Of a DNA stretch of 55,398 nucleotides, positions 16,433-20,925 are shown in pieces. The notes under the pieces are model-generated. The model worked only from the letters and a program-made list of their open reading frames with translations. It was not told the DNA's origin and ran no database searches. This DNA is from an uncultured Bacteroidia bacterium (lineage in GTDB: Bacteria > Bacteroidota > Bacteroidia > Bacteroidales > Prolixibacteraceae), in contig CAIXCY010000069.1 in assembly GCA_903918045.1 (NCBI GenBank), forward strand, positions 1 through 55,398. Reading direction: 5' to 3'. The position numbers were made by a program, and so were the translations under genes. How positions within the stretch are numbered: position 1 is the stretch's first letter; the number at the start of each line of letters is the position of its first letter.

Positions 16433-17149
16433 TTAATAATTCATAGGAACCTCCATAAGTAGAATTTCTGCATCAGTATCAGCCAGGATTGTTATTTTGT
16501 CAGTATCCCAGATTCCAAACCCATCGCGGGCGGCTAATTGCCGATCATTAATAGTCATTTCGCCACTTAGGATAAATGCGTATACTCCATTCCCTATGGC
16601 TTTAAGCTCATAGTCACAACTGACACCTTTGTCAAATTTTCCAAGATGAAACCAGGCATTCTGATGAATCCATACTCCTGCATCTTCCGGATTTGGAGAA
16701 AGGATTTGCTGCAGCTTATTATTGCGGTCTGCAAGATCGAGGGTTATCTGGTCGTACCTGGGGGTGACATTCTTCTTATTGGGGAAGACCCAGATCTGAA
16801 GAAATTTCACCAATTGATCTTTGTTTGCATTATATTCACTGTGAAAAATACCAGTTCCTGCACTCATAACCTGGATATCTCCATGCTTAATCACAGAAAC
16901 AGTTCCCATACTGTCTTTATGCTCAAGATCTCCCTCCAGGGGAATTGAAATAATCTCCATATTGTCATGAGGGTGGGTGCCAAACCCCATTCCCGCCTCG
17001 ACACTATCGTCGTTTAGTACGCGCAAAGCCCCAAAGTTCATCCTTTCGGGATTATAGTAGTTTGCAAAGCTAAAGGTGTGCCTGCTTTTTAGCCACCCGT
17101 GGTTTGCATTCCCACGGGTATCGGCTTTATGTAGAATAGTATTTGTCAT
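16433..17149 (-). CDS. Pirin family protein
   Basis: Bicupin protein of 238 residues; some pirins are quercetin 2,3-dioxygenases and others act as redox-responsive cofactors. The N-terminal cupin has the metal motif in GFGTHPHDNMEIISIPLEG (about 56-74: two His and a Glu), followed by HGDIQVMSAGTGIFHSEYN with the further His. RHTFSFANYYNPERMNFGAL is the pirin signature. The C-terminal cupin (about 160-235) lacks the metal ligands. It lies 2 nt after yceI in the same direction and so forms an operon with it. Confidence 0.93.
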   Translation of the reverse strand: MTNTILHKADTRGNANHGWLKSRHTFSFANYYNPERMNFGALRVLNDDSVEAGMGFGTHPHDNMEIISIPLEGDLEHKDSMGTVSVIKHGDIQVMSAGTGIFHSEYNANKDQLVKFLQIWVFPNKKNVTPRYDQITLDLADRNNKLQQILSPNPEDAGVWIHQNAWFHLGKFDKGVSCDYELKAIGNGVYAFILSGEMTINDRQLAARDGFGIWDTDKITILADTDAEILLMEVPMNY

Positions 17150-17151
17150 GA

Positions 17152-17697
17152 TTATGATTGCTTTACCAATTGTATTTCACAGCTTATTTTTACATCCTCG
17201 CCCACAAGCACTCCACCAGCTTCGAGGGCTGCATTCCAGGTCAGGCCAAAATCCTTTCGGTTTATCTTGCCGTTAATTGTAAATCCCGCTTTCTCATTTC
17301 CCCAGAGATCTTTCATAACACCTCCAAATTCAACATCGAGCTTAATCTGTTTTGTGACATCCTTTACCGTGAGGTCACCATATAACTCATAGCTACCGTC
17401 ATTGTCAACTTTTTCATAAGTATTTCCAATGAAATGGATCTCTTTGAAATTTTCAACATCAAAAAAATCGGCACTTTTTAAATGGGTATCGCGATCTGCA
17501 ACACCTGTGTCTACAGAAGCAGGATTCATCCAGAAATCAATCTCGGAAGTCATAAAATCCTCACCTGTTGTGTATATACTGGCATCAAATTCTTTAAACA
17601 CTCCCTTCACGTTTGTAATCATCAGATGTTTAACTTTAAATCCTATTTCACTGTGAATTGGGTCAATACCCCACTTTGTTTTTACTTGCTCTTCCAT
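17152..17697 (-). CDS. YceI family lipid-binding protein
   Basis: A 181-residue protein of the YceI family, lipocalin-like barrels that bind isoprenoid or polyprenyl lipids. Landmarks are WGIDPIHSEIGFKVKHLMIT at the start, VKGVFKEFDASIYT, the D-T-G-V-A-D-R-D-THLKSADFFDVE segment (about 63-80) and GDLTVKDVTKQIKLDVEF. There is no signal peptide, unlike E. coli YceI, so it is probably cytosolic. Its promoter has an exact -7 box, and pirin follows at 2 nt. An AraC regulator gene lies upstream in the same direction. Confidence 0.93.
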   Translation of the reverse strand: MEEQVKTKWGIDPIHSEIGFKVKHLMITNVKGVFKEFDASIYTTGEDFMTSEIDFWMNPASVDTGVADRDTHLKSADFFDVENFKEIHFIGNTYEKVDNDGSYELYGDLTVKDVTKQIKLDVEFGGVMKDLWGNEKAGFTINGKINRKDFGLTWNAALEAGGVLVGEDVKISCEIQLVKQS

Positions 17698-17896: not shown

Positions 17897-18781
17897 CTAT
17901 TTGATTATGCTCTTCTTAAAATCCTGAAGTGAAAGTCCTTCATTTGTTTTAAAAAATTTACTGAAATGCGAGGGATCTTCGAAGCCAAGTTCAAATCCAA
18001 TTTCCTTACCGCTTTTCCCGGTGAAGATTGCCATCCGCTTTGCTTCAAGAATAATCCGATCCTGAATGAAATCCTTTGCAGAACTGTTTATGGACAACTT
18101 AATTACCTCATTCAGATAATTGGGAGTCACACAGAGTAATTCAGCATAATCCTTAACCTGATGCCATTTCATATAATGGTTTTCAACGACGGCCTTAAAA
18201 TTCGTCACAATTGTTTTACCCACTTCTATGTACTGCGTATTCGTGTCGGGGGCGGCTGAGGTGCATAATCCTTTGCACTCAATCAGGAAGAGTTTAAGGT
18301 AGGCTCCAATGGTTTCGAAATACATCTCATTCCTGATTTGAAACGCCGAAAATATTTGGTTCACAAATGGTTGTAATATATTTATAACTTGCGGCGTGAG
18401 CACAAGCGGAGGCGTTTCGCCACTTTTCTGAAATAACCGCAGGTTGGAAATAAAGTCGTTTCGAATACTGTTCTTTTCGAGAAATTCTGCCGTGAAGAGA
18501 ATCACATATCCGGTTGGATCAGGATCGGTAATCACCTGATGAACCTGCCCGGGACTTACAAAAAAGAGATGGTTCGGAAAGATGGGATATTCCCTAAAAT
18601 CAATCACATGTTTTCCCGTGGCTGTAATTGGCCAGATTATCGTGTAATAATTGTGTCGGTGGGGATTGTCTGCAATTCCCACCATAAGACTGTCTATCCC
18701 CTCCATCGTTTTTATCACAAATGGAGTAGGTGCCCCATTTTGAAGCAAATCAAGGTTATATATATTTTCCTTTCTGGTCAT
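17897..18781 (-). CDS. AraC family transcriptional regulator
   Basis: A 294-residue regulator. The N-terminal cupin sensor (about 15-140) includes NPHRHNYYTIIWP and FFVSPGQVHQVIT. The C-terminal double HTH (about 195-290) includes DYAELLCVTPNYLNEVIK and the second-helix signature IGFELGFEDPSHFSKFFKTN. The effector is not identifiable. It lies upstream of yceI-pirin in the same orientation and next to the divergent cytochrome genes at 19057; either could be its target. Its own promoter is an exact consensus match. Confidence 0.92.
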   Translation of the reverse strand: MTRKENIYNLDLLQNGAPTPFVIKTMEGIDSLMVGIADNPHRHNYYTIIWPITATGKHVIDFREYPIFPNHLFFVSPGQVHQVITDPDPTGYVILFTAEFLEKNSIRNDFISNLRLFQKSGETPPLVLTPQVINILQPFVNQIFSAFQIRNEMYFETIGAYLKLFLIECKGLCTSAAPDTNTQYIEVGKTIVTNFKAVVENHYMKWHQVKDYAELLCVTPNYLNEVIKLSINSSAKDFIQDRIILEAKRMAIFTGKSGKEIGFELGFEDPSHFSKFFKTNEGLSLQDFKKSIIK

Positions 18782-19056: not shown

Positions 19057-20418
19057 ATGAAGAAATCCTTGAAAATAAAGAGTTTTTACTACTCATTGAC
19101 TTTGCCTACCAGCAAAATGGGAGTACAAATTCTAACCCATGCAGGTAAAATTTTGTTTGTAGCTATCGCGTTGCTCTTAAATATAACAGCGGTTAAAGGG
19201 CTGCCAAGTTATGCCCGGCAGACCGGCATGTCTTGTTCTGCCTGTCATTTCTCATTTCCTGAACTAAATTCCTTTGGACGTCAGTTCAAGATGAACGGTT
19301 ATGTACTCACAGGGATGAGCACCATTGAATCGAAGGACGACAGTACCAACGTAACCCGGCTTAAATTGTTAAGCACATTGCCTCTGTCGGCAATGGTTCA
19401 ATCCTCATTTACCCATATTGCAAAAGACGTTCCCGGAGTTCAGAATAATTCGGTGACCCTCCCTCAGCAATTGAGTGTCTTCTATGCCGGACAGGTTACT
19501 CCCCATATTGGGACTTTTATTCAGATGACCTATGACGGCCATAGTTTTGGGATGGATAATGTCGATATCCGGTACGCAAACCAGGGTAGATTTGCAGGCA
19601 AAAGTTTAACTTATGGCTTAACGTTGAATAATAACCCTGCTGTTCAGGATGTGTGGAATACTTCCCCAGCCTGGAGATTCCCTTCTGCCGGATCAGATGC
19701 TGCCAAGACACCTGCAAAATCGTCCATTATGGAAAATCTGGGTGGACAGGTAGCTGGATTAGGCCTATATGCACTTTGGAATAACCTGATTTTTGCTGAA
19801 GTTAGTGCTTACAGATCTGCTCAGCAGGGAGCTGCGAATCCTTCAGATACTACAAGTGTCGGTGTGCTGCGTGGCATTGCACCTTATTGGAGATTGGCGT
19901 TGCAACATCAATGGTATAACAATTATATTTCTGTCGGCACATTTGGGATTGCTCCAAGGCTATATCAAAGCGGTATCACAGGTGACATGAATAAAATCAG
20001 AGATGTCGCCTTTGATTTTCAGTATGAACATAATTTACCTTTCGGAGCGTTAACCATACATTCCTCCTATACCCATGAGAATGAGACTCGTGAATCCTCT
20101 GGTGCTCCAAGTCAGGAATTAGATTTTAATTCTTTTAAAGCCGATGCTAATCTCTATCTGAAAAAAGGATTAGGTGCAACCGTAGGTTATTTTAAAACAA
20201 CCGGCACAGTAGATGAGAATGTCGGCAGCTGGACCAATAAACCGGATAGTGACGGTTATATCGCCCAGCTTGAATATTTGCCATGGTATAATACAAAATT
20301 TGCTTTACAATATGTCGGCTATAATAATTTTGATGGCACACATTGGAATTATGATGGGAAGGGGCGAAATGCATCAGATAATAATACCCTTTACCTCGTT
20401 GTTTGGCTCAATTTTTAA
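19057..20418 (+). CDS. Cyc2-like fused monoheme cytochrome / outer-membrane beta-barrel
   Basis: A 453-residue exported protein. After a long hydrophobic leader (about 30-48) comes LPSYARQTGMSCSACHFSFP with a single c-heme site, C60-x-x-C63-H64, then ELNSFGRQFKMNGY. This arrangement and the A-R-Q-T-x3-CxxCH wording match the N-terminal cytochrome of Cyc2 fused cytochrome-porins as I recall them. The remaining 370 residues alternate polar and hydrophobic residues with many Tyr, Trp and Asn, lack long hydrophobic helices and end in LYLVVWLNF, as outer-membrane beta-barrels do. An ATG at 19117 would give a more normal signal peptide. A cytochrome c gene follows after 21 nt. The likely role is electron transfer across the outer membrane; donor or acceptor is unknown. 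Confidence 0.7.
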   Translation: MKKSLKIKSFYYSLTLPTSKMGVQILTHAGKILFVAIALLLNITAVKGLPSYARQTGMSCSACHFSFPELNSFGRQFKMNGYVLTGMSTIESKDDSTNVTRLKLLSTLPLSAMVQSSFTHIAKDVPGVQNNSVTLPQQLSVFYAGQVTPHIGTFIQMTYDGHSFGMDNVDIRYANQGRFAGKSLTYGLTLNNNPAVQDVWNTSPAWRFPSAGSDAAKTPAKSSIMENLGGQVAGLGLYALWNNLIFAEVSAYRSAQQGAANPSDTTSVGVLRGIAPYWRLALQHQWYNNYISVGTFGIAPRLYQSGITGDMNKIRDVAFDFQYEHNLPFGALTIHSSYTHENETRESSGAPSQELDFNSFKADANLYLKKGLGATVGYFKTTGTVDENVGSWTNKPDSDGYIAQLEYLPWYNTKFALQYVGYNNFDGTHWNYDGKGRNASDNNTLYLVVWLNF

Positions 20419-20439
20419 TTAATATTTACAATTTAGATT

Positions 20440-20853
20440 ATGAAAAGAATTTTTTCAGTTTCATTGCCGCTATTTGTTTTTATGTTGGTATTTAGTGCTT
20501 TTCAGGGAGTTGCTCAGGAAAAGAGTCACGGAATTGGTCCTGTCAAAACTGTTGTACTGGGTCCGTTGAATCCAAAATGGGTAGATGAAGGTAAAGGGAT
20601 ATTTAACATGCAATGTATTGTTTGTCATGATTTGGATCAGAAGAAGATCGGCCCGGCGCTTCGGAATGTAACAAAGCAGCGGGCACCTGAGTTTATTATG
20701 AACCTGCTTTTAAACTCGGCTCAGATGCAGAAAGAGGATCCTATCATCAAGGCGCTTTTAAAGGAATATAACAATTTACCGATGCCTGACCCTGCACTCA
20801 ACCAGGCTAAAGCAAGATCGGTATTGGAATATATGAGATCTGTTGCGAAGTAA
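20440..20853 (+). CDS. Periplasmic monoheme cytochrome c
   Basis: A 137-residue protein with signal peptide (MKRIFSVSLPLFVFMLVFSA, cut near AQ at 25-26) and one heme site, C59-I-V-C62-H63. It continues DLDQKKIGPALRNVTKQR and has a likely axial methionine M115 in NNLPMPDPAL. The C-terminal helix ARSVLEYMRSV is typical of class I cytochromes. It forms an operon with the cytochrome-barrel gene upstream and would be placed to carry electrons between that protein and the inner membrane. A strong terminator follows, ending the two-gene unit. Confidence 0.9.
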   Translation: MKRIFSVSLPLFVFMLVFSAFQGVAQEKSHGIGPVKTVVLGPLNPKWVDEGKGIFNMQCIVCHDLDQKKIGPALRNVTKQRAPEFIMNLLLNSAQMQKEDPIIKALLKEYNNLPMPDPALNQAKARSVLEYMRSVAK

Positions 20854-20880
20854 GCGGTTTCGTATTTAATTGGCATAATT

Positions 20881-20925
20881 CCACTGTCATGATTCTCCCG
20901 GAGATCATAGCAGTGGAATTTTTTT
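20881..20925 (+). terminator. Intrinsic terminator after cytochrome c
   Basis: CCACTG...CAGTGG outer stem, with ATGAT/ATCAT pairing inside and CTCC/GGAG at the tip, followed by AATTTTTTT. It lies 28 nt after the stop codon at 20853. Confidence 0.85.

Follow-up and report, generated by a model that had tools for sequence, protein, structure and literature searches.

The 55,398-nt contig CAIXCY010000069.1 of assembly GCA_903918045.1 (here called the window), from an uncultured member of the Prolixibacteraceae in the Bacteroidales, raises a question: do two adjacent genes at 19057–20853 encode a conduit for electrons across the outer membrane, and if so, from which donor, in which direction and to which acceptor would the electrons flow? 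A preliminary description had read the first gene as a Cyc2-like fusion of a c-type cytochrome with an outer-membrane barrel and the second as its soluble partner cytochrome c. The coordinates it gave for the two open reading frames (ORFs) were right wherever they were checked, and we consider it very likely that the first product is a Cyc2-type outer-membrane cytochrome-porin. The features on which the argument rests are as follows; published sources are given by PMC number.

19057..20418, + strand: predicted Cyc2-like outer-membrane monoheme cytochrome fused to a 16-strand porin, 453 aa (ORF, one CxxCH, relaxed Cyc2 motif, AlphaFold2 barrel, porin fold matches, 80 full-length homologs)
19057..19203, + strand: putative signal-peptide region, residues 1–49, with a long n-region and a hydrophobic core at about 31–45 (translation, low-confidence model helix 22–40)
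19198..19266, + strand: heme-binding segment G48–L70, GLPSYARQTGMSCSACHFSFPEL, with CxxCH at residues 60–64 and PxL at 68–70 (translation, alignment; motif definition from PMC8406198)
19384..20415, + strand: predicted porin barrel, 16 strands between residues 110 and 452, C-terminal Phe453 (AlphaFold2 with DSSP; Foldseek matches to OmpT, Omp-Pst2, OmpU and OmpF1 and, lower down, OprO and OprP)
20440..20853, + strand: probable periplasmic monoheme class-I cytochrome c, 137 aa, C59-x-x-C62-H63, with Met115 as the likely axial ligand (PF00034, PDB matches, 11-row alignment)

Heme segment, predicted fold and family

The translation contains exactly one CxxCH (C60/C63/H64), located after the N-terminal hydrophobic stretch where the preliminary description had placed its single c-heme motif, and its last residue is Phe. 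The best 80 of at least 560 relatives, found by a scan of genome contigs, were aligned with the window protein to give 81 rows, in which the homologs are 39–76% identical; by title they belong to Bacteroidota (32), Pseudomonadota (22), Acidobacteriota (19) and five other phyla (7). Exactly one CxxCH is present in 81 of 81 rows, and P50, S51, A53, R54, Q55, T56, C60, C63, H64, P68 and L70 are invariant. Because these residues of the segment are invariant and the CxxCH is single in every row, the heme motif is not a chance occurrence, and a heme is presumably attached at this site.

Cyc2 proteins are described by the signature AXPXFAR[Q/K][T/Y] before CxxCH and PXL after it (PMC8406198). The window protein has PXL 4 residues past CxxCH (H64-FSF-P68-E-L70), and its spacing from T to C is 3 residues, where the source gives 5 amino acids upstream on an ambiguous counting basis (PMC8406198). 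With 453 aa it also exceeds the minimum length of 365 aa, as do all 81 rows. The strict motif with CxxCH and PxL at the tested spacing occurs in 51 of the 81 rows, and the motif relaxed to [FY] with a free first position occurs in all of them. The published screening motif, PXFAR[QK][TY], fits 55 rows and drops 26, the window protein included; an ortholog 65% identical to it (L022) reads ALPSFARQT.

The AlphaFold2 model, computed from the 81-row alignment (A3), has a mean predicted local distance difference test score (pLDDT) of 84.4 and a predicted template modeling score (pTM) of 0.79, and DSSP assigns 16 strands from residue 110, the last at 444–452; a short strand at 100–105 would give 17. 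Thus, a 16-strand barrel, for which the preliminary description had proposed a structure prediction, is predicted behind the heme segment, after residue 100; the lack of any predicted barrel after residue 90, which it had named as refuting, did not occur. Residues 1–21 and 42–53 of the model fall below pLDDT 50, and the helix at 22–40 is of low confidence. Given this low confidence at the N-terminus and in part of the heme segment, we leave the position of the heme unclaimed. The top solved structures returned by Foldseek are general porins (OmpT, 6.6e-8; Omp-Pst2, 7.7e-8; OmpU, 1.0e-7; OmpF1, 3.1e-7), which we take to have 16 strands. OprO (4rjw) and OprP (2o4v), named as the closest structures for Cyc2 (PMC8406198), follow at ranks 34–35 (1.6e-6). 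Since the root-mean-square deviations in the list are mostly 7–8 Å and the TM-scores by query length are 0.39–0.48, the matches support a fold class and not close kinship. Taken together, the hydrophobic N-terminal stretch (about residues 31–45), the predicted barrel and the terminal Phe suggest a signal peptide and a location in the outer membrane.

No Pfam model matches the barrel protein or any of the 81 rows, and no NCBIfam model matches the barrel protein; a PDB search with the single sequence gave no match up to E 10, and one with the barrel profile gave only a chance-level match, to a bacteriocin (E 0.12). Comparisons with Cyc2 used profiles built in this analysis. Based on the 80 homologs and the profile matches, the homology of the window protein runs to Cyc2-type cytochrome-porins, as the preliminary description had proposed, and not to a periplasmic cytochrome family, the other outcome that it had named as refuting. 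Within a phylum sample of 395 genomes that includes Chlorobiaceae, 107 match A3 at E 1e-3 or better. Seven of the 395, the window's own genome among them, match near full length with E below 1e-190, and the next best match is at 2e-25; among the matches listed, the remainder are confined to roughly positions 1 to 60–175. A search of the window's own genome with the A1 profile, at E up to 10, gave no second copy of the barrel.

Other Cyc2-like arrangements were seen alongside this family. A second, shorter type in the phylum, of about 390–400 aa with P[AS]F[AG]RKY (alignment A5: L014:700-3285, L015:76-2670, L119:1866-4435, L121:2440-3663), matches A3 over the N-terminal 144 columns (2.6e-15), and a multiheme cytochrome of about 460 aa precedes the RKY-type gene in L014, L015 and L119. 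Two barrel homologs stand in tandem at L031:5372-8760 and in opposite directions at L092:8001-17312.

The partner cytochrome and its gene neighborhoods

The gap between the barrel gene and the cytochrome c gene, both on the + strand, is 21 nt. The small downstream protein that had been read as a soluble cytochrome c matches Pfam Cytochrom_C (PF00034, 1.8e-8), and its matches in the PDB are 3cp5 (presumably the Rhodothermus marinus cytochrome; 5.6e-26), 6cuk (3.6e-25) and subunit A of alternative complex III, 6btm (2e-9). With 3cp5, 6cuk and an alternative complex III subunit as its nearest solved relatives, a role as carrier at the oxidase end fits. An alignment of 11 rows has 48 invariant columns, including Met115, which is the likely axial ligand judging from this conservation. 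A cytochrome c assembly protein (PF01578) is encoded in the same genome.

The pair is conserved among relatives. In a survey of 61 genomes (the window's own and 60 relatives), the barrel is matched in 13: its own, 10 strongly and 2 weakly, the weak ones being of the RKY type. The strong matches comprise 9 of the 17 other genus members and 1 of 19 genomes of the family; that in G010 is a fragment lying at the end of a contig. An ortholog of the small cytochrome c lies directly downstream of the barrel in 10 of 10 strongly matching relatives. A search with the small cytochrome matched 17 genomes. Of the 12 in which the match is strong, 11 also have the barrel. The flanking genes that recur in L017 and L024 (sulfatase, GNAT, pirin and MFS) and the tree disfavor a recent transfer into this genome; on these comparisons, we favor vertical descent within the genus, with losses. 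The closest clade in the tree consists of metagenome-assembled genomes (MAGs) of Prolixibacteraceae and of uncultured Bacteroidia or Bacteroidales, with one titled Paludibacter, and the titles of several close relatives name Kiruna, Umea, Loclat and LacPavin, which we take to be stratified freshwater lakes and ponds.

Across the 80 loci, a redox partner gene lies directly downstream of the barrel in 49, and its kind follows lineage. It is a relative of the small cytochrome c (P0002-like) in 22 of 32 Bacteroidota loci, a set that overlaps the 10 relatives above, and a diheme cytochrome c in at least 13 of 22 Pseudomonadota loci (domains checked in one example). The latter count is a lower bound, as L074 and L078 were scored as having none of these partners though a diheme ORF of 251–255 aa lies directly downstream. 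In 14 of 19 Acidobacteriota loci the partner is a Rieske protein, followed by a cytochrome b fused to cytochrome c domains; for the Rieske and diheme neighbor sets, domains were checked in L058 and L057. In six loci (L038, L039, L041, L043, L045, L048), genes related to a pentaheme cytochrome and to a molybdopterin-family protein come after the pair, joined in four of the six by a relative of NrfD. By the domains in L043, the one locus of the six for which they were checked (PF14522, PF00384, Fer4, NrfD, cytochrome c), we read this set as alternative-complex-III-like. Directly upstream of the pair, L043:4905-7904 encodes a sensor kinase (Cache and PAS domains) and a response regulator, possibly a donor-sensing system; ORFs of like size precede the pair in L038, L039, L041, L044 and L048, as judged from sizes only.

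These neighborhoods bear on a reading in which there is no conduit at all: the barrel would be a porin with a heme for gating, redox sensing or peroxide protection, and the cytochrome c would serve an oxidase independently. The predicted pore fold is that of general solute porins, and genome G006, of the same genus, retains the cytochrome c beside pirin with no barrel gene between them (L106, G006:C533, 2180–3634), so that the cytochrome there has its own role or is a relic; the absence of the barrel may be a natural loss or an assembly effect. We judge this reading very improbable given the redox gene that directly follows the barrel in the 49 loci, of a kind that goes with lineage, and the correlation between barrel and small-cytochrome pairwise distances (Mantel r 0.92, 0 of 2000 permutations, n=22: the window plus 21 loci, since L027, truncated, was left out of the 22 that have the cytochrome), although common descent alone can produce such a correlation.

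Three Bacteroidales relatives (L026-L028) hold the pair within a caa3-oxidase operon, between SCO and COX1. The gene order in L026, whose barrel is 60% identical, is Fer4-NrfD-cytochrome c-SCO-[cyc2-cytochrome c]-COX1-COX3-COX4-COX2 with heme-CtaB, where the names are those of Pfam, with two exceptions: COX4 is assigned from where it lies and how long it is, and CtaB scored as a UbiA-family protein. Of this arrangement L027 retains the left half and L028 the right half, both cut off at contig ends. The window's own genome has the same operon on contig C225 without the cyc2 pair, SCO directly adjoining COX1 (identities: Fer4 64%, NrfD 60%, cytochrome c 38%, SCO 54%, COX1 66%, COX3 55%, COX4 56%, COX2 46%, CtaB 42%). 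Two more genes of the COX1 family occur in the same genome, one in a 718-aa frame on C267, probably of the cbb3 type from its neighbors' sizes and heme counts, and one in a 750-aa frame on C39. The preliminary description's minimal two-gene conduit stands for this contig, but in the three relatives the pair is part of a larger operon.

Because the three relatives hold the pair inside a caa3-oxidase operon, inward electron flow is favored, and we regard it as likely. The opposite would be an outward conduit: under anoxia, the cytochrome c would feed electrons from respiration into the barrel and so to humics or Fe(III) outside. Extracellular electron transfer to humics as acceptor has been proposed for lake bacteria with Cyc2 or porin-cytochrome genes (PMC6344600), and several relatives are of lake origin by title. 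Outward flow is nonetheless quite improbable, as the position of the pair in the oxidase operon fits an electron source for the oxidase and a single high-potential heme would presumably make a poor reductase of humics.

Two further features border the pair on the contig:

20877..20925, + strand: intrinsic terminator hairpin with a T run, closing the pair (fold z -4.62)
17897..18781, - strand: divergent AraC-family regulator, a weak candidate for regulating the pair (PF12833, 2e-15)

The terminator had been expected at this point. Its hairpin has a folding energy of -23.8 kcal/mol (z -4.6), with 0 of 200 shuffles equally stable; it is absent from a simple consensus terminator scan, probably because its stem is interrupted. 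The AraC gene was rejected as a conserved regulator, as its place next to the pair is limited to the window and to L008, where an AraC-like ORF, recognized by eye, is likewise divergent; it has no match in L016-L097 at 1e-8. Pirin/quercetinase-like and YceI-like genes adjoin the pair (16433–17697, - strand), and pirin is a common neighbor in the close relatives L016-L018, L022 and L024, lying further off in L020. Elsewhere on the contig, 30021–55199 (- strand) holds a run of very large ORFs (1494, 1592, 1775 and 1101 aa, among others).

Proposed electron donor and path

Taken as a whole, the model that we favor, with moderate confidence, is an inward conduit from Fe(II) through Cyc2 and the cytochrome c to a caa3 or cbb3 oxidase. 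The barrel would sit in the outer membrane, and the short N-terminal segment would hold its single heme at the pore or within it. The heme would be reduced by a donor dissolved outside the cell, for which Fe(II) is the likeliest candidate, and would in turn reduce the co-encoded periplasmic monoheme cytochrome c, standing in for Cyc1; from this carrier electrons would go to one of the genome's own oxidases, the caa3 type on C225 or the probable cbb3 type on C267. Uphill transfer to quinone via NrfD-type or bc-type complexes may also be possible, as the neighbors suggest. A search for RuBisCO in the window's own genome found none, which makes a Calvin cycle unlikely; the search did not extend to other routes of carbon fixation, to nitrate or to further acceptors. 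The host would probably be a heterotroph, with the conduit as a supplementary electron source.

The choice of Fe(II) has experimental precedent in the Mariprofundus Cyc2, which has been expressed in E. coli; it oxidizes Fe(II) in vitro, and its potential is 208 mV (PMC8406198). The same inward conduit could instead draw on reduced humic quinones, Mn(II), a mineral surface or a partner cell. A pore and a heme alone leave the identity of the donor unfixed, the Cyc2-like genes of a humic bog are commoner in the anoxic hypolimnion than in the upper layer, with Bacteroidetes among the carriers (PMC6344600), and one homolog lies in a Melioribacter MAG titled MnB_16 / Mn-Melioribacter (L034). However, published descriptions of the characterized Cyc2 proteins call them iron oxidases (PMC8406198, PMC7029218), and according to Keffer et al. 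dissolved Fe(II) is favored because a donor has to enter the pore (PMC8406198); a donor other than Fe(II) therefore seems unlikely. Iron corrosion by Prolixibacter, which shares the family name, was considered as a link and rejected.

Several points weigh against the Fe(II)-to-oxidase model. (i) We know of no experiment on any protein of this branch. (ii) The authors who characterized Cyc2 caution that function should not be assumed far from the characterized members (PMC8406198), and the placement of the window protein relative to the iron-active Cyc2 of A. ferrooxidans, Cyt572 and Cyc2-PV1 is indirect, via other homologs. (iii) Its GLPSYARQT fits 5 of the 7 fixed positions of AXPXFAR[QK][TY], with A replaced by G and F by Y. 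(iv) The pair is unlinked to the oxidase operon in its own genome, the linkage occurring only in the three relatives. (v) None of the three partner types lies directly downstream in 31 of the 80 loci, eight of which (L033-L037, L047, L050, L079) have a relative of one monoheme cytochrome c upstream. (vi) The barrel is unmatched in 8 of the 17 other genus members, five of them over 90% complete, so the pair is dispensable, and in G006 the cytochrome stands without the barrel. (vii) Binning of the MAG may mislead, despite the flanks common with L017 and L024.

Related systems and biological meaning

Cytochrome c4 is a diheme protein, and MtoAB, PioAB and MtrAB are outer-membrane electron conduits in which separate multiheme cytochromes are inserted in a porin. 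With the latter the window protein would have the conduit function in common, but it differs in having one heme fused to the barrel. With Cyc2 of Acidithiobacillus ferrooxidans and Mariprofundus (Cyc2-PV1) it shares the N-terminal monoheme CxxCH, here after a putative signal peptide, PxL, a 16-strand porin, here predicted, and a length of at least 365 aa (PMC8406198, PMC7029218), as well as the motif in the relaxed form AxPx[FY]AR[QK][TY], the first A being loose in its family. It departs from them in having G and Y for A and F, and the iron-active sequences were compared indirectly. The soluble cytochrome c after the barrel recalls the cyc2-cyc1 order of the rus operon, but the window partner is monoheme and Cyc1 is listed as a cytochrome c4 protein (PMC10654088); moreover, no rusticyanin or cox genes stand beside the pair in this genome.

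Homologs of Cyc2 have been reported in Bacteroidetes MAGs from the humic Trout Bog (PMC6344600), in Bacteroidota MAGs from the Southwest Indian Ridge, in Cluster II, with Bacteroidota among the putatively heterotrophic Cyc2 groups (PMC9769843), and in Bacteroidota ORFs from the Snap-Snap chimney, where FeGenie itself found no cyc2 (PMC11333457). One homolog in our set, L030 (Dive100_bin10.60), is 54% identical to the window protein and carries a dive name as in PMC9769843, and so may come from that project. These are proteins of the same kind in the same phylum, and the available portions of the three papers describe neither a cytochrome c pair nor a caa3 operon (PMC6344600, PMC9769843, PMC11333457). 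The preliminary description's Cyc2-like pair in Bacteroidota is real and conserved, but the occurrence of Cyc2 homologs in the phylum was already published (PMC6344600, PMC9769843). Likewise, the available portions of PMC8357290, PMC11333457 and PMC10654088 do not describe the caa3-operon and Rieske/Acidobacteria arrangements, and we make no claim that these are unpublished. Our literature search found nothing combining cyc2 and Prolixibacteraceae.

Among the partial A3 matches in the phylum sample, many come from genomes of one family (f43), in which the FMO antenna protein was found in 10 of 10 tested genomes. Since FMO marks Chlorobiaceae, we identify this family as Chlorobiaceae. Three of the five stretches fetched from it (L110, L111, L113) encode a protein with ATPAFSRQTGQSCAACH, and the ORF in L112 was not resolved. 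The protein with ATPAFSRQTG..CAACH aligns with the A3 profile at hhalign E 1e-18 over 276 columns, the full extent of the profile homology. The three proteins resemble the window protein in ATPAFSRQTG..CxxCH with the same 3-residue spacing, a length of 420–426 aa and a terminal Phe, and a monoheme cytochrome c stands beside the barrel gene in L110 and L111; there, however, it lies upstream and is apparently of another type, and the hosts are phototrophs. Chlorobium ferrooxidans has been placed in Cyc2 Cluster 1 (PMC7029218), and cyc2 was reported in 40% of Chlorobium metagenomic operational taxonomic units (PMC8125076); identity of our three proteins with the published Chlorobium genes is assumed nowhere. 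Another f43 genome encodes a variant, AIPSWARKY..CYMCH, with a small monoheme cytochrome downstream (L120:2941-4993).

Nine plasmid records match in all. A distant homolog with a downstream c-type cytochrome lies beside a transposase on a plasmid of Acidithiobacillus ferrooxidans YQ-N3 (L096, CP084173.1) and on one of Acidiphilium cryptum JF-5 that is typed as conjugative (L122, NC_009469.1), and from this plasmid and transposase setting such a barrel-cytochrome pair may be mobile. On a plasmid of Caballeronia sp. SBC1 (L097, 3942–6959), a high-potential iron-sulfur protein, possibly another electron carrier beside a Cyc2-like gene, precedes the barrel homolog and a c-type cytochrome.

The type of protein is known; the Bacteroidota lineage and its wiring have been little studied. 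Tentatively, and with somewhat less than even confidence, Cyc2 can be seen as a plug-in electron port, one barrel-cytochrome that is joined by lineage to different acceptors and in lake Bacteroidota forms a complete donor-to-oxygen module without a Calvin cycle. As part of the same tentative picture, the acceptors would be a monoheme cytochrome c with a caa3 or alternative-complex-III-like set in Bacteroidota, a diheme cytochrome in Pseudomonadota and a Rieske/cytochrome b-c set in Acidobacteriota. Such modules in lake Bacteroidota may be under-counted, since proteins with Tyr in the motif do not pass the strict screen as published. This matters for surveys: of the 81 family members in our alignment, strict PXFAR screening leaves out 26.

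Whether Cyc2 oxidizes iron outside the known iron oxidizers is a question raised by those who described it (PMC8406198). The present branch offers a genetic argument, namely the pair in the caa3 operon of relatives, together with a defined candidate carrier and at least one homolog in a named strain, Yeosuana aromativorans JCM 12862 (L035, 50% identical), and the combination of these three makes the question testable. If the proposed path is correct, heterotrophic lake Bacteroidota may join iron oxidation at oxic-anoxic boundaries.

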